Positions 15,194 through 43,877 of a stretch of DNA of 43,968 bases are shown in pieces; within the stretch, counting starts at the first letter, position 1, and each line of letters opens with the position of its first letter. This DNA comes from a virus. The position numbers and the translations under genes are program-made. The notes under the pieces are model-generated. The model saw only the letters and a list, made by a program, of their open reading frames with translations. It was not told where the DNA came from and searched no databases. Location: the IMG/VR virus record IMGVR_UViG_3300020442_002930, positions 1 to 43,968 of that record. One strand, written 5' to 3'.

Positions 15194-17022
15194 TGGCTAC
15201 AACTATTAAAAGTACAGAATTAGATTTTGATACTATAAAAGCACAACTAAAAGATTTTTTCAAAAGACAAAGTGAATTTAGTGACTATGATTTTGAAGCA
15301 TCTGGTTTAAGTAACATACTTGATGTTTTGGCTTATAACACTCATTTTAGTGGTTTGAATACAAACTTTGGTCTTAATGAATCATTTATTAATAGCGCTC
15401 AACTTCGAAGTTCTGTAGTTTCGCTTGCAGAAGGTCTAGGTTATGTTCCAAGATCTTATTCTTCATCACAAGCAAGTTTAAATTTATCAGTATTAGTAAC
15501 TGCTACTAACAGACCTACAACTATAACTTTACCAAGAAATTCAGAGTTTACTACTAGCGTAGATGGCACTAGTTACACATTTCAGACAAGAGAAGTTTTT
15601 ACTGCTACTGATGATGGCGCAGGCAACTATCAATTTGTAACTAGTGATAATTCTACAGGCATTCCAGTTTTTGAAGGCACAGAAAAAACAAAAACATTTT
15701 TTGTTGGCGAATTATCTGATAATCAAGTATATGTAATTCCAGACGTGACAATGGACACTTCGACAATTAGAGTCAGAGTTTTTGATACAGCAAATAGTTC
15801 AACATTCGATACTTACACAAATATATTGAAAGCCGTAAGGGTAGAAAGTGATTCTACTTATTATCAAATTAAAGAAGTACCAAACGGTTATTATGAAATA
15901 ATATTTGGTGACGGCACTTCAACTGGTAAAGCACCAGTTTCTGGTAATAAAATTGTAATAGATTATCTATCTACGCAGGGTACAGTTGCTAACGGCGGAA
16001 CTAGTTTTAGTGCAGTAGGTACTTTAAGAGTAAATAACGTAGATTATAATATCACTACTGTTACAGAAGCAGGTTCAGCTGGTGGTGCTTATAAAGAAAG
16101 TATTGAATCAATCAGAAACAATGCACCTATCGCTTTTACATCTCAAAGAAGATTAGTAACTGCTGAAGATTATAAAGCACAAATCCTTGCTAACTTTAAT
16201 AATTTTTTAGATGATGTTACATCATTTGGCGGCGAAGATAATGTTCCTAGACAATATGGAAAAGTTTTTGTAGGATTAAAATTTAAAGATGATATAAGTA
16301 CGGCTGTTCAACAAAGTGTTAAGGATCAAATTTTAACTGACTTATCCAATAATTTATCAATAATGTCAATCGATACAGTGTTCGTAGATCCTGAAACAAT
16401 AAACTTAGAAATTTTAACTACGTTTAACCTTGATCCTGATTTAACATCATCTACACCACAATCGATACAAGTAAGAGTTCAGAATTTAATAAACAACTTT
16501 TTTAACACAAACTTAAAAAGGTTTAATAAAGTTTTTAGAAGATCTAATTTATTAACACTTATTGATTCTTTAGATTCATCAATATTAAATTCGAAAATGT
16601 CTGTTAAAATTCAAAATAGTTTTTTACCTACACTTAATCAAAGTTTAGAATATATAATAAATTATCCTGTTAAACTCGCAGATCCTGATGATGTTAATTT
16701 TATTGTTACCAGCAGTAAGTTTACTTTTCAGGATACAAGTTGCTTTATTAGAAATTTATTAAAGACTAATCAACTACAAGTAGTATCTGTTGATGGCACG
16801 GTAATTGCAAATAATATAGGTGATTACGATACAAATGCAGGTAAAGTAACTTTAAGAGGTTTTAAAGTAAGTGCTTTTGATGGAGACAAAATTAAAATTT
16901 CTGTCACTCCAGCAAATCAAAGCACAATTAGACCACTAAGAAATTTTGTTATTGATATTGATACTGATGTTTCAGTATCATCAGCAATATTAGATTTCCA
17001 AAATACACAAACAACACTATAA
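15193..17022 (+). CDS. gp6: gp6 baseplate wedge protein (baseplate-J-like)
   Basis: A 609-aa protein (T4 gp6 is 660 aa) that dimerises to form the continuous ring of the baseplate wedge. The N-terminal DFDTIKAQLKDFFKRQSEFS, DYDFEASGLSNILDVLAYNT and NESFINSAQLRSSVVSLAE are hallmark gp6 motifs. The middle holds the J-like beta domain (YEIIFGDGTSTGKAPVSGN). ESIRNNAPIAFTSQRRLVTA is followed by EDYKA, the usual signature before the C-terminal dimerisation part. It overlaps gp25 and the following gene by TAATG at both ends, so all three should be made from one mRNA. Confidence 0.93.
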   Translation: MATTIKSTELDFDTIKAQLKDFFKRQSEFSDYDFEASGLSNILDVLAYNTHFSGLNTNFGLNESFINSAQLRSSVVSLAEGLGYVPRSYSSSQASLNLSVLVTATNRPTTITLPRNSEFTTSVDGTSYTFQTREVFTATDDGAGNYQFVTSDNSTGIPVFEGTEKTKTFFVGELSDNQVYVIPDVTMDTSTIRVRVFDTANSSTFDTYTNILKAVRVESDSTYYQIKEVPNGYYEIIFGDGTSTGKAPVSGNKIVIDYLSTQGTVANGGTSFSAVGTLRVNNVDYNITTVTEAGSAGGAYKESIESIRNNAPIAFTSQRRLVTAEDYKAQILANFNNFLDDVTSFGGEDNVPRQYGKVFVGLKFKDDISTAVQQSVKDQILTDLSNNLSIMSIDTVFVDPETINLEILTTFNLDPDLTSSTPQSIQVRVQNLINNFFNTNLKRFNKVFRRSNLLTLIDSLDSSILNSKMSVKIQNSFLPTLNQSLEYIINYPVKLADPDDVNFIVTSSKFTFQDTSCFIRNLLKTNQLQVVSVDGTVIANNIGDYDTNAGKVTLRGFKVSAFDGDKIKISVTPANQSTIRPLRNFVIDIDTDVSVSSAILDFQNTQTTL

Positions 17023-17975
17023 TGGCAATAAACTATAAAAGTAATAGAAGACTAAAAAACTTTCAAGTAAGGAAAGTAAGAGAATCTTTACCAGAAATTT
17101 TCACGCAAGACTTTTCTAAACTTGTAACTTTTCTTGAAAAATACTATGACTTTTTAGATTCAGCTGGTGGTAGTCACGCCTTTGGTGATCAAACTAAGCA
17201 AATATTTTCTAAAAAAGATATTCATGAGATGCCTGCTGATTTACTAAATAATCTGGTGGCTGAGTTAGCTGGTGGTTTGAGCACTGGAGAAAATTTTACT
17301 GATAAAAGATTTGCGCTTACTAGACTGGCAGAATTACATAAAAATAGTGGAAGTAAATTTAGTGCACAAGAATTTTTTAGATTGTTCTTTCAAGAAAACG
17401 TTGAAATAGAATATCCTAAAAACGATATATTTAAAGTAGGTGAACCTACGAGTACGATTGGTGTAGATTCAATAAAATTTATTCAAAACTACGCAAGGTA
17501 CCAAATTTTTTCTATATTAATAAAATCATCAATAAGTATTAATACATGGAAAGAATTATATACAAAATTTATTCATCCATCTGGTTTTTATATCGAAGGC
17601 GAGGTAAGCGCAGTTGGCCAAACAGGAGGCTTACCTACACAAACTTTATCAATAGAAGATACCAATGTTGCATTTTTGGTACAATCACAAGCTGCTTTAG
17701 GAATGGCTCGTGGCTTTACACAACTTACTACGTTAGTTGATTCTGCTGGCACCGGTGGCACAAGTCCATTACGTGTATCTGACATAAATAAACTAGTATC
17801 TGATTATCAGAATGTTTCTCTTAGCTTCTTAGATAATAACTATGGAAGCATAAGACAAATTTTATCACCAAACTCATTTACTTTTGATGATACAACACAG
17901 GCTGATATATCAAATACTTTTGAAACAATGGATAACGAATTTTTCACAAGGGTAACAAGTGATTCATCTTTCTAG
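17022..17975 (+). CDS. gp7-like baseplate wedge protein, short form
   Basis: A 317-aa protein. Residues 20-145 have the shape seen in wedge proteins of the gp7/tail-protein-I kind: FTQDFSKLVTFLEKYYDFLD, DKRFALTRLAELHKNSGSKF, then SAQEFFRLFFQENVEIEYPK. T4 gp7 is much larger (1032 aa), so this may supply only the part that binds gp6 and gp53. The gene follows gp6 with a TAATG overlap, in the position of gp7 in T4. The C-terminal 120 residues are Ser/Thr/Gln-rich. It contains two Asp-Ser-Ala tripeptides, the first in gene order here. Assignment is by pattern and position. Confidence 0.6.
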   Translation: MAINYKSNRRLKNFQVRKVRESLPEIFTQDFSKLVTFLEKYYDFLDSAGGSHAFGDQTKQIFSKKDIHEMPADLLNNLVAELAGGLSTGENFTDKRFALTRLAELHKNSGSKFSAQEFFRLFFQENVEIEYPKNDIFKVGEPTSTIGVDSIKFIQNYARYQIFSILIKSSISINTWKELYTKFIHPSGFYIEGEVSAVGQTGGLPTQTLSIEDTNVAFLVQSQAALGMARGFTQLTTLVDSAGTGGTSPLRVSDINKLVSDYQNVSLSFLDNNYGSIRQILSPNSFTFDDTTQADISNTFETMDNEFFTRVTSDSSF

Positions 17976-17983
17976 TATAAATA
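17976..17983 (+). promoter_or_regulatory. T4-type late promoter before the 18005 fibre gene
   Basis: Perfect TATAAATA immediately after the stop codon of the gp7-like gene, 21 nt before the ATG at 18005. A Shine-Dalgarno AAGGA lies between (about 17993-17997). Confidence 0.8.
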
Positions 17984-18972: not shown

Positions 18973-20385
18973 ATGCCAGCAATAATAACTAAAAAATTAA
19001 AAAGAAAATTTGCTCAACTTGTATTTGATGAGGTTAGACTTGATTCATCAAGATATTATATTGGTATAGGAAAAGCAGAACCTTATGATTCATCCGAAAC
19101 TGTAACCACACCTCTTGATAGTAGAAGAGAAGATAGAAACATGAGAGCAGGGTTACAGTCAATGAAATCAGCTCAAGATTGTAGTTTTGTGATACCTAGA
19201 TACAATTGGACATCCGGTAACAAGTATCAAGGATTTGATGATACTTTTGCAACTCAACCAGCATCAAACAGTTATTATGTATTGACTGAAGATAATCAGG
19301 TATATGTTTGCCTTAAGCCTTCAAAAGATGCAAATGGTGAAATACAAGTATCAACTGTAAAACCAACTGGTACCGATACAAAAGCATTTAAACTTTCAGA
19401 TGGTTATGTATGGAAATATCTTTATTCTATGACTGCTGCAAATGCAAACAAATTTTTATCTGCAAATTTTCTACCTACTCAGCTTCAACTTGACTCTATT
19501 GGCTTAGGAAGATCGCTTGAACCACTTGAAGTTTTACAAGAAAACGTACAAAACGCAGCTGTTCCTGGTCAAATATTAGGTATAGTGATGACAAATACGG
19601 GTTCGGGCTATGTTGATGCTTCTCCACCTACAGTTACTATTCAAGGTGATGGTGACAGTGCTCCCGCAATCACTGCGACAGTGAGTGGTGGATCTATCAC
19701 AAAAATTGAACTTGATTCAAGTGCAGATAGTGCCATGCAGATGGGAAGAGGATTTGATTTTGCTAGTGTTTTAATACCAGCGCCTGATAGTGCAGGTGGT
19801 GTACAGGCAACAGCAAGAGTAATCATAGGCCCGGATAGCGGTATTGGTGCAGACGCTCGAACAGATTTACTTTCAACTTCGTTAATGTTTAACACTAAAC
19901 CAAGCGGAAATGAAAATAATGATTTTATAGTTGGAAACGATTTTAGACAAGTAGGATTGTTTAGAAATCCAAGAGTATTTAAAGGAATCGCTGGTGCAGA
20001 CTCTGCACTAGATGTGGCATCTGGAAGAGCAATTAGATTTTTATTAGTAACAAGTAGTGTTGATGCTGCAACCTTTAATGCTGATGGGACAATAACAGGC
20101 GGAACATCAGGAGCCAAAGGAATTGTTGATGAAGTCGTAGGTGCTAAAATATATTTTCACCAAACAGAAACAACAGGATTTCATACATTCTCAGAAAATG
20201 AAACAATAACCAGTGGTGCTAGTAGTGCAACCACAGTTGCAGCCGGTCTTGACGCAAACAGTAGAGGTGATTCGGCAGATGATATAAAACTTTTATCTGG
20301 AGAATTACTATACATAGAAAATAGAGCACCAGTTACTAGGAGCACTGATCAAACTGAAGACATCAAGGTCGTAATAACACTTTAG
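18973..20385 (+). CDS. gp8: gp8-like baseplate wedge protein
   Basis: A 470-aa wedge protein (T4 gp8 is 334 aa). The N-terminal VFDEVRLDSSRYYIGIGKAE, SRREDRNMRAGLQSMKSAQD, FVIPRYNW and the YVLTEDNQVYVCLKPS strand followed by DGYVWKYLYSMT are typical of marine gp8. The extra length comes from beta modules. One at about residues 365-430 (GTITGGTSGAKGIV, then SENETITSGASSATTV) matches the insert in gp53. Five Asp-Ser-Ala tripeptides occur. AAGGA lies just upstream. It is followed 8 bp later by the large DUF4815-like gene, as in cyanophages. Confidence 0.88.
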   Translation: MPAIITKKLKRKFAQLVFDEVRLDSSRYYIGIGKAEPYDSSETVTTPLDSRREDRNMRAGLQSMKSAQDCSFVIPRYNWTSGNKYQGFDDTFATQPASNSYYVLTEDNQVYVCLKPSKDANGEIQVSTVKPTGTDTKAFKLSDGYVWKYLYSMTAANANKFLSANFLPTQLQLDSIGLGRSLEPLEVLQENVQNAAVPGQILGIVMTNTGSGYVDASPPTVTIQGDGDSAPAITATVSGGSITKIELDSSADSAMQMGRGFDFASVLIPAPDSAGGVQATARVIIGPDSGIGADARTDLLSTSLMFNTKPSGNENNDFIVGNDFRQVGLFRNPRVFKGIAGADSALDVASGRAIRFLLVTSSVDAATFNADGTITGGTSGAKGIVDEVVGAKIYFHQTETTGFHTFSENETITSGASSATTVAAGLDANSRGDSADDIKLLSGELLYIENRAPVTRSTDQTEDIKVVITL

Positions 20386-20393: not shown

Positions 20394-23300
20394 ATGGTAA
20401 GTACATTAACAAATCAAACTTTTAGTACAACGTATAAAGACGATTTTTCGGATAGTGCAGGATTTCATAGAATACTTTTCAACTCCGGCAAAGCGTTACA
20501 GGCAAGAGAGCTTAATCAACTACAAACTATTTTGCAAGAGCAAATTTCGAGATTTGGTAATAATATCTTTAAAGAAGGTGGAGTCGTAAAACCTGGTGGA
20601 GTTAACTTAAATAACAGATACGAGTTTGTAAAATTAGCCGCTAATACGTTACCTACTGACACAAGCACTATTATAAATCAAGACATGACAGGCACTACTA
20701 GTACTGTCGTAGCAAAAATTATTGAAGTATTACCAGCTTCACAAAGTGATATTGGAGTTGATACACTTTATGTTCAATACGTTAACACGGGTAGTTCGGG
20801 TGGTAGTACAACTAAAAGATTTGTGGCCGATGAAGACCTTACTGTAGGTTCTGAAACAATGAGAGTTCAAGGTACAAATACAACAGAAAATCCCGCTGTT
20901 GGCGCTGGTATACAAGCGACAATACTTTCTGGAATTTATTATGTGGCCGGACACTTTGTTTTTACTCAGAACTTATCAAAAATAATATCACAGTATAGTG
21001 ATAATGCTAATACAGAAATTGGCTTTAAAACTTTAGAACAGGTTGTTACCGCGGCAGATGATGTAAGTTTATATGATAATCAAGGTACTAATCCAAACTT
21101 AACAGCACCTGGTGCAGATAGATACAGAATAACTTTAACATTCGCAGAAAGAAACGACGTAAATTCTGACGAAAATTTTGTGCATGTTGCTACAATAAAA
21201 AATGGTGTTATTTACAATGCTGTTAGTGATACTAACTCATACAATATACCTAATAAAGTTATTGCAGAAAGAATAAAAGAAAACTCTGGTGACTATTTTG
21301 TAAAACCTTTTATTGTTAATTTTTCAAAAGATTCTCAAAATACGCACCTCTTATTAAATGTAAGTCCTGGTGTTGCGGTAGTTGAAGGTTATAGAGCAGC
21401 AAGAGATTTTCCTACTACTTTAAGAATTCCAAAGCCAACAGAAACAATAACATTTACAAATGAACCTACACAAATAGAATTTGGTAATTACGTCGTCGTT
21501 GATCCAAGTGTAAACACTTCAAATAAAAAGCTACCTAACATTGCAACATTTGAAAAGCTTAATTTAAGAGATACTGCTGACTATGGTGGTTCGACTATAG
21601 GTACTGCTAGAGTCAAGGCCGTAAATGAAGATGGAACGCTTTTAAGATATTACTTATTTGATATACAGATGAATTCAGGTAACTCATTTCGTCAGGTAAA
21701 GAGTATAGGAACTTCTGGTACTCAATATTTTGAGCCAGTTTTAGAAAATAGTTCTGCCGTAATTAAAGAACCGCTTATTAATCAAAACTTATTTGGACTA
21801 TCTCACCCAAGACCAAAGAATATAACACCTGTATCTTTTGCCGTACAAAGAAGGTTTACTGGGCTTACTACTGATGGCGGCGGTTCTGTATCATTGAGTG
21901 GTTTAGGATCAAATGAAGTATTTACTAATGAAGGCGATTGGGTTATAGGTACTGATAGTGACATATTTCAACCAAGCAGTTTGACTGGAGATGCTAGTAC
22001 AACTATAACAGGCGCTGGAGCTGGTGCAACAATTACAGGTTTACCACCAAATCAATCAGTACAAGTTTTAGCATATGTTAATAAATCAAATCCAACTGCT
22101 AGACAAAAAGTCTTGACAACTACTACTAAGAGTTTTTCAGTCGTAGACAAACAAATAAATCTTGCAAAAGCTGATATATTCAGTGTAGATGAAATTGTAA
22201 AAGCTACTGATAGTAGTTTGTCATACGCTGGTGACTTTATTGTCGACAATGGTCAACGAGATAATCACTATGGCTTAGGAAAGTTAATACTTAGATCTGG
22301 TAGAACTGCTCCAACCGGAGATGTTTCAGTAACATTCAGACATTTTACTCATCAAGGTGGTGATTTTTTTAGTGCTAATTCATATGATGGTCAGGTAGAT
22401 TATAGTCAAATACCTAGTCACAGATTCTCAAACGGAAGAAGAATATTTTTAAGAAACTTTTTAGACTTTAGATCTGTAATGGATTCTGCTGGTGAATTTA
22501 CTGATGCGTCAAAAGGTGCTATTGTTAATGAAATACCACAGCCCGGAACTTTAGTTTTATCAACCAATGAATACTATCTTGCTAAAACAGGTAAATTAGT
22601 AATAGATAGAGAGGGTTCAATAAGATACTTCAACGGAACAGCTGGCTTTAATCCAGGGTTTCCAGACAAACCAGAAAATACTTTAGGTTTATACGATATA
22701 AGATTAAATGCTAATACTGATAATGACTCTGATGTTGAAATAAGAGCAATAAGACATAAGCGTCATACTATGAAAGATATTACAAACATAGAAAAAAGAA
22801 TTGATAAGCTTGAAGAAATTACGTCTTTGAATTTGTTAGAGCTTGACACAAAACATTTTGAGGTTCTTGATTCTGCTGGTAACGATAGAACTAAGTCTGG
22901 ATTTTTTGTAGACAATTTTAATAATCATAGAGGCTCTGAAATAGATAGATTAGAATATAGAGCTGCTATTGATCCTGTCAATCATTTATTAAGACCTGCG
23001 TTTCAAGAAGATAACGTAAAACTTGTCTTTGATTCTGATGCTTCTTTAGCGTTAGGAACTGTTAGAAAAGGTGATAACATATACATGTCTTTTACTGAAG
23101 ATTTGTATATTGATCAAAAAGACGCAACTACTGCTATTCGAATTAATCCTTTTAACATCGCAATATATGAGGGTACTATAACACTATCTCCAGCATCAGA
23201 TGAGTGGAGAGATGTGGAAAGACTACCTGATGTTTCAATACCAGGCGAAACGGTATTAAATCTAGAAAATGCTTATAACTGGAATAACTGGTCATGGAGC

Positions 23301-24425
23301 TGGGGCGGTATACCTACTGATGAGTTACAAGTTGGTAGTGAAACTGCAGAAATAAGTAGTGCTGTAAACAGAGTTGTATCTGATAAAATAGTTTTAGATT
23401 TAATAGAAGATAGAGTAATACAAACAGCTTTCATACCTTTTTGTAGAGCAAGGCAAATATCATTTAAAGCGACAGGACTAAGACCAAATACTAAACACTT
23501 TGCTTTTATTGATGGATTTAATTTAGGTAATCTAGTTAGAGAAGAAAATACTTTTATTAACTATTCAACTGTAGGTACAGACCCTGGTAATACATTAAAA
23601 GAAGTATATACTCATCCATCAGGCGCCCCTTTAGATAATCTTGTTTCTGATCCTAATGGAGAAATAATAGGTTCATTTATAGTACCAAGTAATAACGATA
23701 AAAAAGTAAGGACTGGTACTGTTAAATTTAAGTTAATGGACATAAATGTAGATAAAGAAGAAGACGCTGGAAGTTTTGCTAGTGCAGCATATACTGCGAC
23801 AGGATATCTAGATACAAAAGAAGCTTCATACACAGCAACTCGTGTCTTAGGTGTTCAAGGTTATTATTTTGGAGGAGGCAGTGATAATCAAGGATCAAGC
23901 GGTGGTGACGACGGCGGTGATCCAGGACCAGGTACTTCCATCGATGCATCAAATGCAAATGATACAGCAGGTGATGCACCAGGAAATGAATTTGGTGGTA
24001 ATGAAAATTCAGGAATGGGTGATCCTGGCGCTAGTGGTGCAGATAATGGACCGGGCGGTTCAAGCGCAGGCATGGGCGACCCAGGAGCTAGCGGTGCAGG
24101 AGCCGGAGATTCTACTGGAGCAGGACCTGGTTGTGTAATTGCCACACACGGAGTATCAACCGGTGGTTTCACTTTAATGGAGAAAACAAAGGCTGAAATT
24201 TGGTGTGCAAAAACATATCATGGAAAATGGTATGGTGAAGCTTTTAGAAGAGGTTATAAAGCTTGGGGAATGAGCCATATAAATGCAGGAACGGCGCCTA
24301 ATGTCTATCAAGAATTTAAAGACTTTGTTGCTTACGGTCGTGGATTGAAAAAAGATTTTAAGACAGCAATAAATTACTATCGCAGAACTTTACAATTGTT
24401 TGTCTGGGGATTATTTATTAAATAG
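20394..24425 (+). CDS. Large outer-baseplate protein (DUF4815-like) with C-terminal CVIATH domain
   Basis: A 1343-aa virion protein. The N-terminal DDFSDSAGFHRILFNSGKAL, QARELNQLQTILQEQISRFG and NIFKEGGVV are typical of the DUF4815-type protein that follows gp8 in marine T4-like phages, probably a gp10-like part of the outer baseplate. The centre (about 900-1150) has long beta segments. Residues about 1160-1245 are a Gly/Asp/Ser-rich flexible linker holding GMGDPGASGA twice. The last 98 residues form a separate domain starting CVIATHGVSTGGF and rich in Trp/Tyr/Lys (AEIWCAKTYHGKWYGEAFRR). This CxIAT start recalls the CFIAT-type domain of unknown function found at protein C-termini in many bacteria. 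The start lacks a strong Shine-Dalgarno (TAGGAATTAAAATG). Confidence 0.75.
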   Translation: MVSTLTNQTFSTTYKDDFSDSAGFHRILFNSGKALQARELNQLQTILQEQISRFGNNIFKEGGVVKPGGVNLNNRYEFVKLAANTLPTDTSTIINQDMTGTTSTVVAKIIEVLPASQSDIGVDTLYVQYVNTGSSGGSTTKRFVADEDLTVGSETMRVQGTNTTENPAVGAGIQATILSGIYYVAGHFVFTQNLSKIISQYSDNANTEIGFKTLEQVVTAADDVSLYDNQGTNPNLTAPGADRYRITLTFAERNDVNSDENFVHVATIKNGVIYNAVSDTNSYNIPNKVIAERIKENSGDYFVKPFIVNFSKDSQNTHLLLNVSPGVAVVEGYRAARDFPTTLRIPKPTETITFTNEPTQIEFGNYVVVDPSVNTSNKKLPNIATFEKLNLRDTADYGGSTIGTARVKAVNEDGTLLRYYLFDIQMNSGNSFRQVKSIGTSGTQYFEPVLENSSAVIKEPLINQNLFGLSHPRPKNITPVSFAVQRRFTGLTTDGGGSVSLSGLGSNEVFTNEGDWVIGTDSDIFQPSSLTGDASTTITGAGAGATITGLPPNQSVQVLAYVNKSNPTARQKVLTTTTKSFSVVDKQINLAKADIFSVDEIVKATDSSLSYAGDFIVDNGQRDNHYGLGKLILRSGRTAPTGDVSVTFRHFTHQGGDFFSANSYDGQVDYSQIPSHRFSNGRRIFLRNFLDFRSVMDSAGEFTDASKGAIVNEIPQPGTLVLSTNEYYLAKTGKLVIDREGSIRYFNGTAGFNPGFPDKPENTLGLYDIRLNANTDNDSDVEIRAIRHKRHTMKDITNIEKRIDKLEEITSLNLLELDTKHFEVLDSAGNDRTKSGFFVDNFNNHRGSEIDRLEYRAAIDPVNHLLRPAFQEDNVKLVFDSDASLALGTVRKGDNIYMSFTEDLYIDQKDATTAIRINPFNIAIYEGTITLSPASDEWRDVERLPDVSIPGETVLNLENAYNWNNWSWSWGGIPTDELQVGSETAEISSAVNRVVSDKIVLDLIEDRVIQTAFIPFCRARQISFKATGLRPNTKHFAFIDGFNLGNLVREENTFINYSTVGTDPGNTLKEVYTHPSGAPLDNLVSDPNGEIIGSFIVPSNNDKKVRTGTVKFKLMDINVDKEEDAGSFASAAYTATGYLDTKEASYTATRVLGVQGYYFGGGSDNQGSSGGDDGGDPGPGTSIDASNANDTAGDAPGNEFGGNENSGMGDPGASGADNGPGGSSAGMGDPGASGAGAGDSTGAGPGCVIATHGVSTGGFTLMEKTKAEIWCAKTYHGKWYGEAFRRGYKAWGMSHINAGTAPNVYQEFKDFVAYGRGLKKDFKTAINYYRRTLQLFVWGLFIK

Positions 24426-24434: not shown

Positions 24435-26033
24435 ATGCCAGTAACTTCAACCGGTTACAGATTAAATAAGCAGCCAATAGCTCAATCGTTTTTTGTAGAT
24501 GAGAGAAACGGAGTATATTGCACAAAAATAGACTTGTACTTTCAAGCAAAACCTACCACAGGATCTGCTTTACCAGTACAAGTGCAACTAAGACCGATGC
24601 AAAATGGTTACCCTTCATCTTCACAGATTATACCAGGAAGTATAGTTACAAAGGCTGCTTCATCCGTTAATGCCGATACTTCTGGTCCTGAACTAACACC
24701 TACAACTTTTGAATTTGATGAACCAGTTTTTTTAAAAGGTAAAGAGGACTTTGCGATTGTTGTGATTGCTGATTCATTAGATTATCTAATTTACATAGCC
24801 GAAATGGATAAATTTACTTTTGGCGCTACATCAAAACGAATTAATAAACAACCTACTCTCGGAAGTTTATTTTATTCTCAAAACGGAGCAACTTTTACTG
24901 CTTCTCAAAATCAAGATTTAACATTTAGATTACATCAAGCAAAATTTACGAACACGAGAGGAACCGCAATATTTCATAATGCTTCACTGGCACAAAGAAG
25001 ACTTTTCAGAGATCCAATAGTAACAACAAGTGGTGATGCAACAGTTAGAGTTAAACATCGTAGTAGTGGATTAGTCGTTAATAACAAAGTAAGTATTAGA
25101 GGAATACCAACTGGAGGTGTTGGAGGTATTTCAAAAGCTAATCTAGAAGGAAGTAGAACAATAACTGCTGTTGATTACACCGGATATACGTTTGAAGCTG
25201 GAGCAGCTGCGTCATCTGATGCAGTCGGTGGTGGCGATAGTTGCTTTGCAACTAATCACGTTCCGTTTAACCTTGCATATCCTCACGCTCAAATCTTACA
25301 ACCTAAAGACACATTCGTTGCAACAGCATTTAAACCAGTAACTACAAGATCTTATGTTGAAGATACTTCAATACCAATTAATAAGTTATCCGATTTTCAG
25401 GCTCTTCAAAGAAATAAAAATAATATATCAGATAGAAGATTCGTAGTTATGTCAGATAGTAATGAAAATATATTATTTAGTGATACAACAACTAAATCTT
25501 TAGATTTTAGAGTGAACCTATCTACTATTGATTCAAACGTATCTCCTATGATTGATACACAAAGAATGTCAATGACTCTTTGCGATAATATTATAGATAA
25601 ACAAGATTCAGCAATAAACAGCGCAGCTTTCAATACTCCACTGGTATTTGGTAGTGAAGATTCTGCTGCAGGTGGTTCATCAGCGGCAAGGCACTTTACT
25701 CGTGTTGTTGAGTTGGAAGAAGATGCAGTAGGATTAAAAATATTATTAAGTGCAAATAGACCAAATGAAGCTGACTTTCAAATATATTTTAGAACTGCAA
25801 CATCAGACGAAGATATTAGAACAAAGAATTTTACTTTAGCGCCTGCTGAAAATGTAATTCCAAGTTCTGAATCTAAAGAAGTTTTTAGACAATATACCTA
25901 TCTTATAGGTGGAACAGGCGGTAACTTGATTTCTGCTTTTACAAAATATCAAATTAAAATTGTTATGAGAAGTACTAATCAAGCTAAAGTGCCGTTAATA
26001 AGAGATTTAAGAATAATTGCATTGGCTGTTTAA
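24435..26033 (+). CDS. Outer-baseplate virion protein paired with the DUF4815-like protein
   Basis: A 532-aa protein with the N-terminal pattern PIAQSFFVDERNGVYCTKID, LYFQAK and LPVQVQLRPMQNGYPSSSQI. I know this from the structural protein that regularly follows the DUF4815-type gene in cyanophages. The pattern (a galactose-binding-like beta sandwich) is repeated weakly near residues 90-110 (FAIVVIADSLDYLIYI). The C-terminal half is also beta-rich and includes DEDIRTKNFTLAP and IKIVMRSTNQAKVPLIRDLR. It has TAGGAG upstream and is coupled to the next gene by TAATG. Role: probably part of the outer baseplate that carries fibres. I know no enzymatic function. Confidence 0.65.
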   Translation: MPVTSTGYRLNKQPIAQSFFVDERNGVYCTKIDLYFQAKPTTGSALPVQVQLRPMQNGYPSSSQIIPGSIVTKAASSVNADTSGPELTPTTFEFDEPVFLKGKEDFAIVVIADSLDYLIYIAEMDKFTFGATSKRINKQPTLGSLFYSQNGATFTASQNQDLTFRLHQAKFTNTRGTAIFHNASLAQRRLFRDPIVTTSGDATVRVKHRSSGLVVNNKVSIRGIPTGGVGGISKANLEGSRTITAVDYTGYTFEAGAAASSDAVGGGDSCFATNHVPFNLAYPHAQILQPKDTFVATAFKPVTTRSYVEDTSIPINKLSDFQALQRNKNNISDRRFVVMSDSNENILFSDTTTKSLDFRVNLSTIDSNVSPMIDTQRMSMTLCDNIIDKQDSAINSAAFNTPLVFGSEDSAAGGSSAARHFTRVVELEEDAVGLKILLSANRPNEADFQIYFRTATSDEDIRTKNFTLAPAENVIPSSESKEVFRQYTYLIGGTGGNLISAFTKYQIKIVMRSTNQAKVPLIRDLRIIALAV

Positions 26034-35400: not shown

Positions 35401-38354
35401 CTCATGGTTACATGGGCCATGCACTTCAAATTGGTACTCGTAACTTTACAGGATTTACAACTACTAATTTAAGTGAAGGCACAAACCTATATTACACAGA
35501 TACAAGATTTGATAATCGATTAGCTGCGAAAACTACAGATAATTTAAGTGAAGGTTCAAGCAACTTATACTATACAAACGCAAGAGTTCAAACATTTGTA
35601 GATTCCGCGTATGTACAAGCACGTCAGTTACCATCAACTGATTCTGCCGCTACACAGGCAATGATTGATTCAAACTTTATTAATATGGCAATAGACATCC
35701 ATATTCCTGATGGAGGTTCTAATCATGATAGCGCTAAAATATCTTTTGGTAATGACAGTGACTTAAAGATATTTCACAATGGAAGTCATAGCGTAATACA
35801 AGACGCAGGAACCGGTTCTTTATTAGTTCAATCAAATAATTTTACAGTACAAAATGCTGCTGGCACCGAAAATCAAATTCAAGCTCTTTCTGGCGGCGTA
35901 GTAACACTATATCATAATAATCTTTCTAAATTAAAAACTGACTCTGATGGTATAAGAGTTCCTGGAATTGTTAATCAGGCGTCCGGTATTATACTTGAAG
36001 ATCCATCAAATACTGCTTATGGCGGCCACGTTACTTTTTATGATGGTTCAGCAACAGAACATTTTGGAAATGGCGACATAGTAATTGGTGGTAGATCCAA
36101 TGGTACTCGACTTAAAAATATTGTTTTAGATAGAGACATTGAGAGAGTTAGATTCCCAGGTGACGTACAATTTGATTCTTCTTCTGGTATTATATTTGAT
36201 GTATCAGATAAAAGGCTTAAAGTTAATTCAAGTTTATATAAAATTCAATTAATTGATAATGCTACAATAAAGTTTGGCACTGGCGAAGATGGAGAAATAA
36301 AACACACTGGTTCTAATTTCCAATTTCAAAACACTACTGGAGATTTACAATTTTCAAATTTTGCTAATGATAAAGATGTAGATATTAGAACAGATGATGG
36401 AAGTGGCAGTACAGCACTTTATTTTAAAGCTGATGGTTCTACCGGTAAAGCAATATTATATTACTATGGGTCACAAAAATTAGAAACATCTGATTCCGGT
36501 GTAAGTGTAACCGGTGAACTTACTGCAGACTCAGCAACAATCGGTGGATTAAGATTTCCAAAGTCTGATGGCCTAAACAATCAGGTTATAAGAACCGATG
36601 GAGCTGGTAACTTATCTTTCGTATCAGTAGCAGCTATAAGTGGAGCAATTGATTCCGCTGCAGTCATTACTTTAATTGACTCAGCGTACGTAGCGGCGAG
36701 ATCATCAGGTGGTACTGATTCAGCAGCCACACAGGCGATGATTGACTCAAACTTAGCTAATGATATTACGTTTGGCGGTAAACTTGCTTTATCATCCACA
36801 TCTGGCCCTCTTATAAAAACAACTGCTAATTATTCAACTTCAGACATTTCTATTTTGCAAGTAAGTGGTGATGGCACAGGAGGTCCAGGAACATTTGGTT
36901 TTGATGTTAAATACATGGGTTCGAGAACTGGCAATAATAATTCTTATTCATTATTCATGCACAACCAGACTGGAACTGATGTAGAAGCAATGACAGTTTT
37001 TCAAGATGGTAAGGTTGGTATAAATCAGGTTACTCCAACTTCAGCACTTCATGTTGGTGGAGCTGCATTATTTGATGATGATGTAACATTTGATTCTGCC
37101 GGCGCTGTATTCTTTGATAAGTCACATCAATCTCTTAATTTTGGTGATCATTTTAGAGCTAAGTTTGGTGATAGTGGTGATGCTAGTATTCGATGGAATG
37201 CCAACAATTTAGTCTTACAAACCAATACTGCTGGTATTAGTTTACAACCTGATACTGAAGCTAATGTATGGAATGGCAGCGCTTATATATTTAGAGCAAG
37301 CAAAACAAATAACAAAGTAGAACTGTATGCAAACAACACAAAAAGACTTGAAACTACAGATTCTGGCGTTAATATTACTGGTAATATAAGAGTTGATAAC
37401 GCACCATTTACGAGTGGTATTACGGTACAAGAAGAAGGATCATCATTATCTACGGCAGGTACTACATTAAACTTTGTTGGAGATAATGTAACTGCAACGG
37501 GATCAGGTGCTACTAAAACTATTACGATAACTGGTGGTAGTGGCGTAACCGGTTTTATTAATAATGTGAAAGCAGATACTTTTACCGGTGATGCAAGTAC
37601 AACTGCATTTACTTTATCAAATGCCCCGGCCGATTCTGATGATCTTATGGTATTTGTGAATGGTGTGCTTCAACATACAAATACTTATAGTGTATCAGGA
37701 ACTACATTAACACTTGATTCTGCACCAGACTCTGCAAGTGATATCGAGACAAGGACACACTTATTACAATCAGCCAGCTTAGTACTTAGAGATCATAAGT
37801 CATATGTTTATACTTTAGATACAACTACTGATTCAGTGAGTGGAGCTGATTCTGCCGGTGTAACACTAGCGTATGACGTAGGCAAAGTTGACGTATTTGC
37901 TAACGGTTCAAGATTAGTAACAGGAAAAGACTTTACTGCTACCGATGGAACATCGATCGTATTTGATTCGTCTTTCTCATCTGGTAACGTGATTGAAGTT
38001 GTAAGTCATGCTAAAGCGACTACTGCAGATCTTAATGGTATACTTTCAATTGATAGTGACTTAACAACTACGGGTGCTAATCAAATCATACATACTTATG
38101 CAGCAGCGAATCATAGAACATTAAAATTTACTGCACAGATAGAACATGATTCAAGTTCAAGCTATCATGCCGAAGAAGTTTTACTAACACACAACGGAAC
38201 ATCTGTGGCAATGACTACATACGCACAAGTTTTACTTGACTCAAACTTAGGAACGTTTGATGCGGATATAAATAGTGGTAATGTTAGAATAAAATTTTCA
38301 CCGACGAAAACAAATACTAGCATTAAATTAAGAGCAATAAGGACTCCAGCGTAA
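32451..38354 (+). CDS. Giant tail fibre (1967 aa) with repeats and a cupredoxin-like domain
   Basis: The largest gene of the window. Residues 1-240 are a beta-rich anchoring region. Residues 244-770 hold six copies of a unit of about 34 aa (DAGGDGSFSY, YTGPSASEVRAHF). NLYYTDARADSAAKASLLA-type motifs, common in phage fibres, occur several times. Residues about 885-1000 form a cupredoxin-like domain with candidate copper ligands His941, Cys982, His985 and Met988. The second half alternates TDSAATQAMIDSN units, LYHNNLSKLKT / LYANNTKRLETTDSG modules and a TFTGDASTTAFTL...VFVNGVLQ domain near residue 1710. Asp-Ser-Ala occurs 23 times. It should be the long receptor-binding fibre, made late, and is coupled to the next fibre gene by TAATG. 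Confidence 0.88.
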   Translation: MAIKVTVGQTTFVKKIVVGTPIATAQTGISIDDFSDFSVATKSDGQILVYDSAETAFKNFTFDIGNGLAKEFTPGNDRLLIQIDSDKTPVVTGLSTKGHIVPTTDSTFDLGDSAKKFRDLYLSGGTIHLGNIDLKDSNGGFAATDSAGDPVNLNLQGSIQQIRNMFASGGDLSYNASTGIFEFDVEQVYTKENFDSDFNVTLDSAVLEGVGLNYSNATNTLNIDSSELSDFFRQDIRGYISGTDAGGDGSFSYNATTGVITYTGPSPAEVRAHFSAVDSGGDGAFSYESATGKFIYRGPSATEVRAHMAAVDAGGDGSFSYDSSTGAYTYTGPSAAEVRAHFSGGDGIGYNSGTGDIRLDSAELTNLYRQTIRGYISGTDAGGDGSFAYNATTGTFTYTGPSASEVRAHFSGGSGIAINSGDIKIDSSELTDFFRQHIRGFINAVDAGGDGSFAYDSALGKLTYTGPSASEVRAHFSAGEGIDISSGEISGEDATTSNKGIASFNTEHFTVTSGAVSIKADGIDDTHIDFGTGTNQVNTDDVPEGTTNLYYTDARADSAAKASLLAGTGVTYDSSTGVIAIGQPVATTDNVTFNQVRGPAEFIIDPATVGDNTGTVKILGNLQVEGTQTVINSTTVSINDKNIVLADSAADAAAADGAGITINGASATLNYSASGDKFVFNKPFEGQYLGFDSDFDSALTTKTTSNLAEGTNLYYTTARADSDAKASLLAIDAGGDGSFTYDSGTGVMTYTGPSASEVRAHFTGGSGIGLSSGDIKIDSSELYSLYKHDDFGDFVADEHVAHTGVSIIAGNGLTGGGNIASSRTINIDSANVRGMFSASGDLSYNSGTGQFSIDVEDVYTKENFDSDYVLAKDSANTAVERNQHIDSADFTVTVNSKTANHVYSGGSGNAYYIDGTESPILNLKIGRTYQFNLSSSDMSSHPFRFYYDAAKTTQYTTNVTTGSTFARILITESTPSVLHYQCSAHGYMGHALQIGTRNFTGFTTTNLSEGTNLYYTDTRFDNRLAAKTTDNLSEGSSNLYYTNARVQTFVDSAYVQARQLPSTDSAATQAMIDSNFINMAIDIHIPDGGSNHDSAKISFGNDSDLKIFHNGSHSVIQDAGTGSLLVQSNNFTVQNAAGTENQIQALSGGVVTLYHNNLSKLKTDSDGIRVPGIVNQASGIILEDPSNTAYGGHVTFYDGSATEHFGNGDIVIGGRSNGTRLKNIVLDRDIERVRFPGDVQFDSSSGIIFDVSDKRLKVNSSLYKIQLIDNATIKFGTGEDGEIKHTGSNFQFQNTTGDLQFSNFANDKDVDIRTDDGSGSTALYFKADGSTGKAILYYYGSQKLETSDSGVSVTGELTADSATIGGLRFPKSDGLNNQVIRTDGAGNLSFVSVAAISGAIDSAAVITLIDSAYVAARSSGGTDSAATQAMIDSNLANDITFGGKLALSSTSGPLIKTTANYSTSDISILQVSGDGTGGPGTFGFDVKYMGSRTGNNNSYSLFMHNQTGTDVEAMTVFQDGKVGINQVTPTSALHVGGAALFDDDVTFDSAGAVFFDKSHQSLNFGDHFRAKFGDSGDASIRWNANNLVLQTNTAGISLQPDTEANVWNGSAYIFRASKTNNKVELYANNTKRLETTDSGVNITGNIRVDNAPFTSGITVQEEGSSLSTAGTTLNFVGDNVTATGSGATKTITITGGSGVTGFINNVKADTFTGDASTTAFTLSNAPADSDDLMVFVNGVLQHTNTYSVSGTTLTLDSAPDSASDIETRTHLLQSASLVLRDHKSYVYTLDTTTDSVSGADSAGVTLAYDVGKVDVFANGSRLVTGKDFTATDGTSIVFDSSFSSGNVIEVVSHAKATTADLNGILSIDSDLTTTGANQIIHTYAAANHRTLKFTAQIEHDSSSSYHAEEVLLTHNGTSVAMTTYAQVLLDSNLGTFDADINSGNVRIKFSPTKTNTSIKLRAIRTPA
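33180..34739 (+). repeat. Six copies of a ~34-aa (102-bp) coding repeat in the giant fibre
   Basis: The unit begins DAGGDGSF.Y, continues with .TG...YTGPS and ends EVRAHFS. Copies 1-3 are perfect tandems of 102 bp starting at 33180, 33282 and 33384. Copies 4, 5 and 6 start at 33588, 33786 and 34644, separated by other fibre modules. Copies 1, 4 and 5 are each preceded by a RQxIRGxI segment. DNA identity is moderate because codons differ. Confidence 0.9.
38277..38284 (+). promoter_or_regulatory. Possible internal late promoter for the 538-aa fibre gene
   Basis: Perfect TATAAATA inside the end of the giant fibre gene, 69 nt before the ATG at 38354. It is in coding sequence, where such octamers also arise by chance in this A+T-rich DNA, so support is modest. 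Confidence 0.4.
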
Positions 38355-39970
38355 TGGGAACAAAAATAAGACCAATAAATCTACACACATCAGTAGACAC
38401 GCACATACAAGGTCTAATTGATTCGTCTTTTGTTCAGGCAAGATCATCAGGCGGCACTGATTCTGCTTCAACGCAGGCGATGATCGATTCTAACTTTGAA
38501 AATACAGCAACTTTTGGAAATGATGTAATTTTTGATTCTTCTGGTGTAATGGCTTTTGATAAATCAGAAAAATTACTTAAACTTGGAGATGCTTCAAATT
38601 TAATACTTGGTGATGACAATGATCTTAGAGTATTTCATTCGGCAGGTTCAGGTGTAATAAGAAATCAAACAGCTGGTCGAATTTATTTACAATCAAATAA
38701 TACAACTGACGGTGTTATAATAACTAAAGAATTAGCCGCTGAAACAATGGCTAAATTTAGAGCAGATGGTCCAGTAGAACTATATCATAATAACGTTAAA
38801 AAGTTAGAAACTACAGCTTATGGTGCCACAGTTACTGGAACTATAAACGCTGATTCTGCAACAATTAATAATGACATAAGAGTTAGCGGATCGGTGTTTA
38901 TTGCTGGAGCTGGCGGTACTGGTGCAACACTGAATAATACAACCATTACAGGAGTTAACTATTTAGAGTTTAATGATCCAGGAAATCAAGAAGGAATAAG
39001 ATGGAACGGTGGTAATACACAATTATTTGAAGCGCCTAACGATCTGTCTAATGCTGCTGGTAATTTACAAATGACGCATGGTGGCACAAGAAGGCTTTCA
39101 GTATCAGACTCAGGCGCAGAGGTTGTTGGAAATTTAACTGTAAATGATAAAATGCAGATAAGGCCTAATGCTACTAGTAGCGAAATTTATGAAATTGCTA
39201 TTGATTCTGCTAATACTGGAAGCTTTACCGGATTAAATTTTAAAATGGATAATAACCTTATCCAGAGTTTCTCTACAGGAGGAAGTGGACAACTCGTACA
39301 GTTTCATAAAGACGTTTATCTGGAAAATGGCACTAAATTATACTTCGATGGTTCTACAGATGACGCAAATCACACACAATTAACAGTTCAAAATCCTACA
39401 GCAGACAGAACAATCACACTACCTAATATGACTGGAGGAATTAAAGAATTGCTTATATCAGAAGGCTCCATGAATGCTTCTTCATTAGTTTTTAACAGTG
39501 GAACTATAACTACAGAATACAGTGAGCTACGTTTGGTATTGTCAAATTGCAAACCTAGCACACAAACAGGCGTATATATGAGAGTAGGAAGCAGCAACTC
39601 TGGTGATGGAGGCACTAATTATGGACAAGCTATATATTATTCCGGTTACTATGGAAGCGCTTCAGCATACAGCATAAATTATGTTGATCATGATGCTACT
39701 TACTTTATCATAGCTGAAGGTTACGCTCAATTAGGTACTGGTACTGGGCAAAACGGACATTTTGAAATTACGTTTCTAAATCCAAATACCTCATCGCATT
39801 ATAAACTTTTTAAGATAAATTCACAAATATACAGTTATTATCCAATGTTAATGGGTCGTTATATTGATGCCGCAGTGTGGAGATCTACTGCTGCGATAAA
39901 TTATATTCAAGTATATCCGGGTAGTGGAAATTTGGCACTTGAGTACAAATTATATGGAGTTAAATCATAA
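38354..39970 (+). CDS. Second tail fibre protein, related to the giant fibre
   Basis: A 538-aa fibre protein. The first 60 residues (QARSSGGTDSASTQAMIDSN, then FENTATFGNDVIFDSSG) are nearly the same module as two segments of the giant fibre (near nt 35618 and 36691). LYHNNVKKLETTAYGATVTG (about residues 138-157) is another shared module. After the stem (to about 350), the C-terminal 180 residues are distinct: LTVQNPTADRTITLPNMTGG, then a Tyr/Ser-rich beta domain (GQAIYYSGYYGSASAYSI) likely to be the receptor-binding tip. It starts in the stop codon of the giant fibre (TAATG), suggesting co-translation and possibly co-assembly. Confidence 0.82.
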   Translation: MGTKIRPINLHTSVDTHIQGLIDSSFVQARSSGGTDSASTQAMIDSNFENTATFGNDVIFDSSGVMAFDKSEKLLKLGDASNLILGDDNDLRVFHSAGSGVIRNQTAGRIYLQSNNTTDGVIITKELAAETMAKFRADGPVELYHNNVKKLETTAYGATVTGTINADSATINNDIRVSGSVFIAGAGGTGATLNNTTITGVNYLEFNDPGNQEGIRWNGGNTQLFEAPNDLSNAAGNLQMTHGGTRRLSVSDSGAEVVGNLTVNDKMQIRPNATSSEIYEIAIDSANTGSFTGLNFKMDNNLIQSFSTGGSGQLVQFHKDVYLENGTKLYFDGSTDDANHTQLTVQNPTADRTITLPNMTGGIKELLISEGSMNASSLVFNSGTITTEYSELRLVLSNCKPSTQTGVYMRVGSSNSGDGGTNYGQAIYYSGYYGSASAYSINYVDHDATYFIIAEGYAQLGTGTGQNGHFEITFLNPNTSSHYKLFKINSQIYSYYPMLMGRYIDAAVWRSTAAINYIQVYPGSGNLALEYKLYGVKS

Positions 39971-40717: not shown

Positions 40718-41056
40718 ATGCCTAACACACTTAAAAATATTTTAACTACACAGTTAAGTACTGATTCGGCAACCTTATATACGTGCCCAAGTTCGACTAA
40801 GACAATTATTATCGGAATGTCAGCAGCAAACGTACTACCAAACAAGAATGTTAATTTTAGTGCAGCAATTATGGATTCTGCTGCAGATTCTACTCCAACT
40901 CATATTGTTAAGAATGTTACAATTGCACCAGGCGGCACAGAAGTTATCGTAGGTGGAGATCATAAGATTATAATGCAAACAGCAGATAGGTTGAAAGCAG
41001 TTGCATCAGACTCAGATTCATTAGACGTTATAGTATCATACGTGGAGCAAACATAA
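40718..41056 (+). CDS. Small beta-sandwich virion protein
   Basis: A 112-aa protein with SATLYTCPSSTKTIIIGMSA, PTHIVKNVTIAPGGTEVIVG, then GDHKIIMQTADRLKAVASDS and SLDVIVSYVEQ at the end. The order (response strand, PxG-turn, GGDHKIxMxxxDxLxxxAS) is the pattern of a small structural protein common in cyanophage fibre regions, function unknown. Two Asp-Ser-Ala tripeptides occur. It probably decorates or links fibres. It is placed tightly between two fibre genes (3 bp before, 1 bp after) and has GGAG upstream (TTTTGGAGGATAAGAG). Confidence 0.65.
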   Translation: MPNTLKNILTTQLSTDSATLYTCPSSTKTIIIGMSAANVLPNKNVNFSAAIMDSAADSTPTHIVKNVTIAPGGTEVIVGGDHKIIMQTADRLKAVASDSDSLDVIVSYVEQT

Positions 41057-41057
41057 T

Positions 41058-42163: not shown

Positions 42164-42763
42164 ATGAGTACATTAACAGTTCAAAATATACAAGGTTCAT
42201 CAAGTGGTGGTAATACTATAAATGTTGCGAGTGGTCATGTTTTACAAGCGACTGGTCATATTTTACAAGTAAAACAAGCAATATTTCGTGGTAATTATAC
42301 TTTCAATGATGCTTCTTATCAAGATATTATTGATCTTACTGTATCAATAACACCAAGTTCAACATCAAATAAAATACTCGCTAAATGCGTATTAAATGCT
42401 TCTGCTAATGCAAATCAAAGATTCGGAATTCGTATTGTAAGAGATGGAAGTATGATATTACCACCTATAGATTATAATGGTCAAGGTGGCAGTAGTAGCA
42501 GTGGGGCATCAGATGGTGTTGCTTTAGGTAGTAGAACACCTGCTCATGTATTTGGAAATGGTGTTGGTTCTAATGCACCTACACAACCGTCAACTATAGA
42601 ACTACTAGATACACCAAGTTCAACATCTTCGTTGACATATAAAGTTCAAGCGTTCTGTGAAGCATCATCATATTTGTACATAAACAATTGTCAAACATGG
42701 AGTGATGATGCAACAAAGTTTGGTGCAGTTTCTACTTTAACTTTAATGGAGCTCGCAGGATGA
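42164..42763 (+). CDS. Fibre tip protein (SITPSSTSNKI family)
   Basis: A 199-aa protein. An N-terminal attachment peptide, TLTVQNIQGSSSGGNTINVA, is followed by SGHVLQATGHILQVKQAIFR. The tip domain has DIIDLTVSITPSSTSNKILA, a signature of small phage fibre-tip proteins, then RFGIRIVRDGSMILPPID and a C-terminal LYINNCQTWSDDATKFGAVS strand pair. A Ser/Gly loop (SSSSGASDG, near 112) may be a variable ligand-binding loop. AAGGA lies before the ATG, and the stop overlaps the next ATG (ATGA). Probable receptor-binding tip. Confidence 0.75.
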   Translation: MSTLTVQNIQGSSSGGNTINVASGHVLQATGHILQVKQAIFRGNYTFNDASYQDIIDLTVSITPSSTSNKILAKCVLNASANANQRFGIRIVRDGSMILPPIDYNGQGGSSSSGASDGVALGSRTPAHVFGNGVGSNAPTQPSTIELLDTPSSTSSLTYKVQAFCEASSYLYINNCQTWSDDATKFGAVSTLTLMELAG

Positions 42764-43233
42764 GTACTCTCGGTAAGTCACCACAGTTTGGAATATATCA
42801 AAGAATGGATGCGATCACCGGTACGGGCGATTCATCGTATACGCTTAAAATCGACACTGTACCGCAACCAAACTTTATTGCGGAACAATTAATTGTATCA
42901 GTTAACGGTGTAATACAAGCTCCTAACTCTGCATATACGGTAAGTGGAAGTACTATAACCTTTAGTGAAGCTCTTGACTCTGCGACTCATACTATAGATT
43001 TTATCACTGCGATGGGACACGCCCACAGTACTAATACTGTTTCAGATAATAGTGTCACAGCCGCAAAATTAAATGATGCGTTAGCGATTACAAATACGCC
43101 AGTAAGAAAGAATACGAATAGAATACAAACAGGATTTACTTTAGACTCAAATGATAATGCGGTAGTTGGTGGACCAATAACAATTGACTCAGGAGTTTCA
43201 GTAGTCATTAACGGATCATTGTCGATAGTGTAG
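42760..43233 (+). CDS. Short fibre protein, paralogue of the N-terminus of the 41058 gene
   Basis: A 157-aa protein. Its first 90 residues (STLGKSPQFGIYQRMDAITG, SSYTLKID, LIVSVNGVIQAPNSAYTVSG) repeat the plan of the 41058 protein (STLGQKPATQHVSLQKQTIT and following). After the shared HAHSTNTVSDNSVTAAKLND linker, however, it ends in a short generic strand region (VVGGPITIDSGVSVVINGSL), with no bulky tip. It may therefore be a stem or connector without a receptor domain, or one allele form of a modular fibre. It overlaps the previous gene by 4 bp. One Asp-Ser-Ala occurs (LDSATHT). Confidence 0.72.
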   Translation: MSTLGKSPQFGIYQRMDAITGTGDSSYTLKIDTVPQPNFIAEQLIVSVNGVIQAPNSAYTVSGSTITFSEALDSATHTIDFITAMGHAHSTNTVSDNSVTAAKLNDALAITNTPVRKNTNRIQTGFTLDSNDNAVVGGPITIDSGVSVVINGSLSIV

Positions 43234-43241
43234 AGGAGAAA

Positions 43242-43877
43242 ATGGCATTAACGAGAGTAAAAGCAGCAGGAGTAACTAACAACGCGATCGGTTCATCGCA
43301 ACTTGATTTAACTGCAAACTACACATTTACTGGTACTATTTCTGGTGCAAGTGGTTGGAGGCAAGAAACAAAGTCTGCTGATAACAGCGCAGTCGAGTTA
43401 CAATTTGATATTGGCGCCGGTGCTGAAATAATATTTGTTACACTTGAAAATTTCTATAAAAGTGGTACTGGCACAAATACAATGTTACAACTTGGAACTT
43501 CTAGCGCGTTTCTCGGTACAGGCTATCAAGAAAGAAATTCTTACATATCACAAGGTGCAGTGAATGGTGGTGGTAACTATGGAAGTAGCGGAAACAGAAA
43601 TGGTTTTGTGATGTCTGGTGAAGCGGCGGCAGGTTCTACTTATCGTTTGAATGGTACTTATAAATTATTTAGAAGAGATTCCGCTACTGGAAATGCGGCA
43701 TCTGATAATGTTTGGTTATGTGACTGGACAGCACAATCTCAAACAAACTCTTATGTCACGATAGGTGGCGGTTCGAAAAATGTAGGGGCGCTTTTAACAA
43801 GGCTCAGAATAATAAGTGCAAACGGTTCTTCAAATTTACAAGCAGGTTCCGTTACTGTTCGTTATTTAGTTAGGTAA
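43242..43877 (+). CDS. Fibre tip protein
   Basis: A 211-aa protein beginning ALTRVKAAGVTNNAIGSSQL, an N-terminal pattern common to small fibre proteins of marine T4-like phages, then a short GTISGA stem. Residues about 40-211 form a beta-rich, Gly/Asn/Ser-rich tip (FLGTGYQERNSYISQGAVNG, GGNYGSSGNRNGFVMSGEAA) ending in strand LQAGSVTVRYLVR. AGGAG lies upstream (TAGAGGAGAAAATG). The tip has no similarity that I can see to the other tips here, consistent with a set of alternative or complementary adhesins. One Asp-Ser-Ala occurs (RDSATGN). Confidence 0.7.
   Translation: MALTRVKAAGVTNNAIGSSQLDLTANYTFTGTISGASGWRQETKSADNSAVELQFDIGAGAEIIFVTLENFYKSGTGTNTMLQLGTSSAFLGTGYQERNSYISQGAVNGGGNYGSSGNRNGFVMSGEAAAGSTYRLNGTYKLFRRDSATGNAASDNVWLCDWTAQSQTNSYVTIGGGSKNVGALLTRLRIISANGSSNLQAGSVTVRYLVR

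Follow-up and report, generated by a model that had tools for sequence, protein, structure and literature searches.

Gene content of the window

The window analysed here is the whole 43,968-base virus record IMGVR_UViG_3300020442_002930, a fragment of a T4-like phage as judged by homology of gp6 and gp8 and, for gp8, also by fold. From position 17022 onward, it encodes virion proteins that are rich in the tripeptide Asp-Ser-Ala (DSA) and, more broadly, in Asp-Ser followed by a small residue (DS-small). In gp6, none of 50,697 phage records is closer than phage C48C1 (Kyanoviridae by annotation), at 44% identity. Close relatives of the window are uncultured IMG/VR contigs, the nearest being ∼91% identical; contig G002 is this 91% relative in gp6. 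A pattern search of the window's own virus record yielded nothing.

The motif-bearing virion genes are all on the plus strand. The first encodes an outer baseplate or neck-like protein (17022..17975; PHROG head closure Hc2 or baseplate wedge) with two DSA and three DS-small, followed by the baseplate wedge protein gp8 (18973..20385), assigned to T4 gp8 by sequence and fold, with five DSA and nine DS-[ADSNGC]. Further on are a large DUF4815-like virion protein (20394..24425; phrog_358) with three DSA and seven DS-small compared with 2.1 expected, a virion protein representing the C-terminal part of phrog_358 (24435..26033; two DSA, five DS-small), a tail-fibre-like protein (26241..27002; three DSA, seven DS-small), and a fibre-like protein (27006..28031; one DSA, four DS-small). 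An embedded cassette (28453..32008) contains genes at 28453 and 29147 on the plus strand and at 29753, 30343 and 31031 on the minus strand, of which 30343 is glycosyltransferase-like and 31031 encodes a radical SAM protein, the other three having no assignment. It is followed by an L-shaped tail fibre assembly-like protein (32095..32442; one DSA), the giant tail fibre (32451..38354; 23 DSA, 49 DS-[ADSNGC] and two other DS), a tail-fibre-like protein (38354..39970; three DSA, six DS-small), and three small virion-region proteins (40718..41056, two DSA and three DS-small; 42760..43233, one and three; 43242..43877, one DSA). The baseplate wedge core gene gp6 (15193..17022, plus strand), in which DS-small is avoided throughout the clade, served as a contrast gene.

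Excess of DSA in the late virion proteins

The window contains 48 DSA tripeptides, 23 in the giant fibre (1967 residues) and 25 in the rest of the region from 17022 onward. Given the composition of each single protein, from which expected counts were calculated, the fibre should have 1.7 (P ~2e-18). The other late virion proteins have 24 compared with 2.7 expected (P ~2e-15), and all 17 late virion-region proteins together have 47 compared with 4.4 (P ~8e-32). DSA ranks first in enrichment among all tripeptides, both in the fibre and in the other late virion proteins. This comparison had been proposed in a preliminary description of the sequence, which counted 23 DSA in the fibre, with about 2 expected, and about 25 more in other virion proteins. 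Our recount agrees, including five in gp8 and three in the DUF4815-like protein, except that one of the 48 sits in a cassette gene (29147-29761) that encodes no virion protein. The preliminary description also saw no DSA in the roughly 5,600 residues encoded before 17022, and indeed we found none in the 16 proteins (5,553 residues) of that part. DS-small is mildly avoided there (3 compared with 8-9 expected); the avoidance is strong clade-wide.

The simplest explanation would be chance, composition or repeat expansion, as the fibre is rich in D, S and A and has internal repeats (DAGGDGSF, EVRAHF). In 1,000 rounds of shuffling within 30-residue blocks, the DSA count reached at most 7 in the fibre and at most 10 in the remaining late proteins. 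The dipeptide-based expectation in the late virion proteins is higher than the compositional one, since both constituent dipeptides, DS and SA, are overrepresented too, but at 19.7 it is still far below 47. The Ser codons of the 48 DSA (34 TCN and 14 AGY) follow about the background mix, and the tripeptide has 19 nine-base spellings; hence the excess is not a DNA repeat, as had been argued earlier from the varied Ser codons. These nulls and spellings, the presence of the motif in unrelated proteins and its clade-wide replication refute this explanation, which we regard as hardly conceivable. A DNA-level motif, such as GANTC sites arising from GAT-TCN, was also rejected, since AGY codons occur at about the background rate.

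The giant fibre also has a cupredoxin-like stretch at residues ∼889-1048 (HPFRFYY...LHYQCSAHGYMGH; phrog_30742) with a blue-copper-like ligand pattern by eye. The tail fibres of Melnitz, P-TIM68, Bellamy and Mosig share this stretch at 52-56% identity. For a tail fibre, a metal site would be unusual.

Residue rules of the motif

Residue preferences were determined in a non-redundant set of 55 proteins from related contigs, selected for at least two DSA each (36,175 residues in total). The enriched tripeptides (observed/expected) are DSA (229/21.7, a level inflated by this choice of proteins, which does not affect the contrasts with other third residues), DSD (114/19.2), DSS (77/25.5) and DSN (40/16.4); DSG (33/22.3) and DSC (3/0.3) are weaker. 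The motif can thus be written as D-S-[A>>D>S>N,G,C]. The same pattern holds for DS-[ADSNC] counts in homologs of the window's late genes taken irrespective of their DSA content. In the giant fibre, 49 of 51 DS are DS-[ADSNGC], and DT-small is absent compared with ∼8 expected. The preliminary description treated DSA as the unit; it is strongly in excess, but the actual unit is broader, namely D-S-small.

Near-variants are rarer than expected: DTA 9/22.8 (0.39), NSA 7/18.7 (0.37) and ESA 6/10.5. DT overall is at 0.66 of expectation, so that Thr is not accepted at the second position. DS before a bulky residue is avoided (DS-[ILFM] 7/48.8; DSI 3/17.0, DSL 3/17.3, DSM 0/2.6, DSV 11/17.1), while the positions flanking D-S-small are nearly unconstrained. 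The interchange of Asn, Ser and Thr expected of a turn or helix cap is not seen, given the values for NSA and DTA. Ca2+-binding loops were rejected by reasoning only, as DSA, the commonest form, lacks a second acid.

These rules bear on a suggestion of the preliminary description, that DSA fits the general O-glycosylation sequon of Bacteroidetes. Tailed phages assemble in the cytoplasm, and their virion proteins are not exported. The Bacteroidetes sequon is D(S/T)(A/I/L/V/M/T/S/C/G/F), and the system requires substrate export (PMC8550257). Both motifs have Asp, then a hydroxy residue, then a small residue, both occur in many substrates, and D-S-A lies within the bacterial sequon. The phage motif, however, uses Ser only, avoids I, L, V, M and F as the third residue, is enriched in Asp and Asn at the same position, and occurs in proteins of virions that assemble in the cytoplasm. 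General O-glycosylation of this kind by the host is therefore very improbable.

Distribution across the clade and turnover of sites

About 75 related uncultured loci, whose gp6, if present, is at least 45% identical, share the excess, with observed/expected ratios of 3.6-8.2; in HTVC008M, Melnitz, Mosig, P-TIM68, Bellamy, S-PM2, S-TIM5 and C48C1 the ratios are 0.4-1.4. The T4 tail is similar in the gp8 fold and gene order, but the T4 region has no DS-small or DSA excess. The gp6 tree joins the motif-rich contigs to C48C1 (100/100) and separates them from the remaining outgroups; C48C1 is either sister to these contigs or nested among them.

Individual sites turn over. In 46 gp8 homologs, outgroups included, 267 sequons are spread over 49 alignment columns, at a steady density of about 3-9 per protein. 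At shared columns D-S is kept and the third residue varies (in the 17022 family, for example, D9 A8 G8 S8 N4), and the Ser codon class switches (35 TCN/12 AGY; 25/9). Hence both strict residue identity at the acceptor and positional turnover are observed, as expected of a modification sequon. The sites do not appear to be merely inherited blocks; modification sequons would evolve in this way, and folded turns need not.

C48C1 has a different repeat solution in the absence of the DSA motif: a region encoding a 3347-residue protein is dominated by GNY/YSR/YTR/FAG repeats (GNY 87 compared with 4.5 expected). The C-terminus of the window's protein at 27006 is a degenerate version of this repeat (FTGFFTRNYT).

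Outside versus inside of the virion

We placed the annotated virion genes of C48C1 onto 14 clade contigs and compared DS-small in exterior and interior families; the orthologs counted are not independent of one another. Exterior families of the clade are enriched (observed/expected): gp15 24/3.1, gp8 64/10.3, gp14 22/5.6, sheath 36/11.0, the 17022 family 36/6.4 (10 contigs), DUF4815/24435 90/27.3 and capsid 13/4.4. Interior and non-virion families are depleted: gp6 1/12.0, portal 1/5.5, gp27-like 0/6.7, scaffold 0/4.0, terminase 0/4.9, ssb 0/4.0 and tube 0/1.6. In sum, the clade has 285/68.1 (4.18) in exterior and 12/65.0 (0.18, a 5.6-fold depletion) in interior and non-virion families; the corresponding outgroup sums are 31/32.1 (0.96) and 27/29.4 (0.92), and gp6 of the outgroups has 10 DS-small for 9.0 expected. 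For a further 42 conserved families, most of them non-structural, the ratio is 0.54 in the clade (C48C1, 0.69), and in the rest of the G001 genome it is ∼0.9. Thus, the avoidance is generally weaker in enzymes than in interior virion proteins. The partition fits a cytoplasmic enzyme that modifies every accessible site.

It would likewise fit a non-covalent docking motif bound by a virion protein or an exterior chaperone, which should also produce enrichment outside, avoidance inside and free positional turnover. However, ∼50 sites per fibre and a context-free three-residue code would be unusual for docking, and no partner candidate is at hand; we consider it improbable.

The AlphaFold model of gp8 (mean pLDDT 85) matches T4 gp8 in a Foldseek search (1n7z, E 1.1e-11, TM-score on target 0.60), and the fold is thus that of a T4-like myovirus tail protein. 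In this model, 75% of sequon Ser are in loops, compared with 67% of other D and 60% of other S; in the model of the 24435 protein the values are 81%, 57% and 64%. This leaning towards loops, as well as some fibre sites that precede helix-like segments (DSAATQAM, DSAETQAL), would agree with a local structural motif of outer baseplate and fibre folds, such as an Asx/ST turn, a helix N-cap or a beta-helix corner, the plain alternative of the preliminary description. Still, the turn-equivalent residues Asn, Thr and Ser do not substitute for those of the motif, unrelated folds share it, the gp8 and sheath folds of sister phages do without it, and interior proteins avoid it. A structural motif is thus distinctly improbable.

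Candidate modifying enzymes

The embedded cassette, proposed earlier as a possible modifier, is unlikely to have this role. It occupies a variable hot spot whose gene content differs from relative to relative and which is empty in three strongly motif-rich loci (L024, L026, L027); the cassette is therefore not required. Only a single relative was found to have its radical SAM gene, and genes distantly related to three in this stretch (28035, 28453, 29147) occur in C48C1, which has no motif excess. Gene 30343 was rejected as the common enzyme, as it has paralog-like weak matches in several relatives, none in G005 and one in C48C1. The hot spot has a fibre-accessory gene on one side and the assembly gene of the L-shaped fibre on the other, and is also present in L019, L023, L025, L050, L054, L055, L058 and L067, where it carries changing sets of radical SAM, glycosyltransferase-like, methyltransferase-like and other genes.

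About 15 families are present in three or all of four near-complete clade genomes (G001, G014, G033, G017) and absent from the complete genomes of both C48C1 and HTVC008M. Two adjacent GT25 glycosyltransferases stand out among them as modification-capable enzymes, accompanied by a third, weaker GT25 relative; each near-complete clade genome examined has the pair; the remaining families are structural, unknown or unrelated, and one is ThyX thymidylate synthase-like by eye. GT25 matches to Pfam PF01755 score 51.2, 45.5 and 37.0 bits (cut-off 24), and profile comparison relates the enzymes weakly to procollagen galactosyltransferase 1 and mimivirus R655. E95-H-D97 is invariant in four orthologs; its match to the acidic catalytic motif of the family is assumed.

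Each of the six clade contigs that extend over the locus of the first GT25 carries the ortholog (G001, G002, G003, G006, G007, G008); the eight complete outgroup genomes do not, and GT25 has no match among the 50,697 phage records. The sequon excess is also seen in every one of ten additional contigs that have both GT25 and gp8. In C48C1, placed with the clade by the gp6 tree, both the excess and a GT25 ortholog are lacking. A GT8-like neighbour accompanies GT25 in five of the six contigs, and HTVC008M has a distant one. The module is outside the window, at 72.6-75.2 kb in the 91% relative G002, where the GT25 pair occupies 73882-75218. Hence, clade genomes, including G002, encode a glycosyltransferase in the same genome as the motif; the window is too short to hold the module. 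G016, G019, G025 and G027 were considered as a possible second lineage with GT25 and the sequon and set aside, as they are fragments that have many genes in common with the clade genomes, and three lack the greater part of the fibre region; because of the shared genes and fragmentation, descent is inseparable from the enzyme in these contigs.

A protein of ∼205 residues (VIGNGDxA...LTCNIPPxPV...VDFKMM) that matches neither Pfam nor PHROG is encoded within or next to the GT25 module; it is conserved in G001, G002, G003, G006, G014, G017 and G033, and is also present in C48C1. In bacterial species genomes, GT25 had a single match, a 21-kb contig binned as Rhodobacteraceae (L316; FZLS01000043.1), whose genes match these phages one by one; this either hints weakly at the host or reflects mis-binning of a phage.

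A putative modification sequon of the virion exterior

Taken together, strict residues, turnover, the outside/inside split and absence in relatives without the candidate enzyme argue that D-S-small is a covalent modification sequon, which we consider quite probable. The preliminary idea that DSA marks modification sites may thus be retained, without the Bacteroidetes sequon and the cassette. As for chemistry, a sugar seems the better guess, most likely O-linked to Ser. The acceptors would be fibres, outer baseplate, sheath, sheath terminator and neck, and modification would be carried out by phage-encoded cytoplasmic enzymes before or during assembly. Such an enzyme would act on accessible D-S-small sites in general; if so, selection would favour sites where surface modification helps, and disfavour them in the tube, hub, wedge core, portal and several non-virion proteins. 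As modifier, the leading candidate is the conserved module outside the window, the tandem GT25 pair, often with a GT8-like enzyme. We tentatively assign the modification to GT25, with chances somewhat short of even; that an O-linked sugar is added to Ser of exterior proteins by phage-encoded cytoplasmic enzymes, with the GT25 pair as the best candidate, seems reasonably probable.

Several observations weigh against this scenario. GT25 is missing from G004, G005 and G009, all of which are fragments, G005 ending before the syntenic place, and C48C1 has a distant GT25-like protein (∼25-30% identity over ∼110 residues). GT25 and the sequon may co-occur by mere descent, as both are confined to one clade. 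The division into exterior and interior families follows T4 architecture and was made with knowledge of the data, and capsid gp23 is high in outgroups as well (2.4). The loop preference of the sites is modest (75-81% compared with 57-67% for other D and S). Lipooligosaccharide is a frequent acceptor of GT25 enzymes. For phage glycosyltransferases, DNA and host sugars are possible targets, too (PMC12619734).

A different covalent modification of D-S-small by a phage or host enzyme, such as Ser phosphorylation, nucleotidylation or Asp hydroxylation, is less likely, though worth considering. The sequence evidence leaves the chemistry unnamed, and D and S are both strictly required. Fibre genes of related phages, e.g., HTVC008M, commonly have 2OG-Fe(II) oxygenases as neighbours, Mosig carries Asp_Arg_Hydrox-domain proteins, and our filter for clade-only families would miss a modifier with outgroup homologs. 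On the other hand, the oxygenase-bearing phages lack the sequon excess, and no kinase or oxygenase is prominent among the families confined to motif-rich genomes.

Comparison with known systems

A literature search found no paper on a phage tail sequon with the terms used. To our knowledge, phage virion glycosylation is known from few cases, none with such a code. In mycobacteriophages Che8 and Rita, glycans are reported on capsid and tail tube proteins, at their C-terminal ends (Freeman et al., 2023, as cited in PMC11256854 and PMC12619734). As far as these citing accounts go, phage-encoded glycosyltransferases are associated with the virion-protein glycans there, similarly to what is predicted here from genes; the C-terminal glycans of those phages, which are other phages with other hosts, differ from a tripeptide spread over many exterior tail proteins and avoided in the tail tube. 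The GT25 family comprises bacterial lipopolysaccharide glycosyltransferases, procollagen galactosyltransferase and collagen-modifying glycosyltransferases of mimivirus (PMC9546862). The phage proteins score above the PF01755 cut-off, and the family includes protein-modifying enzymes, viral ones among them. However, the acceptor of the collagen-modifying members is hydroxylysine within collagen repeats, in eukaryotes. We lean slightly towards a novel phage protein-modification system that would have its own strict, Ser-only sequon, operate in the cytoplasm, and cover the whole exterior of a contractile-tailed virion, with its sites counter-selected in interior virion proteins; this may involve a new acceptor specificity of GT25 enzymes, or else a non-sugar chemistry.

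If true, a large uncultured marine T4-like lineage coats the exterior of its tail with a covalent modification placed at a readable three-letter code. Such a code would turn sequence into a map of modified, exposed sites, and the interior counter-selection would give a sequence-only readout of surface exposure. It would also provide a function for phage glycosyltransferases that are usually filed as auxiliary metabolic genes.

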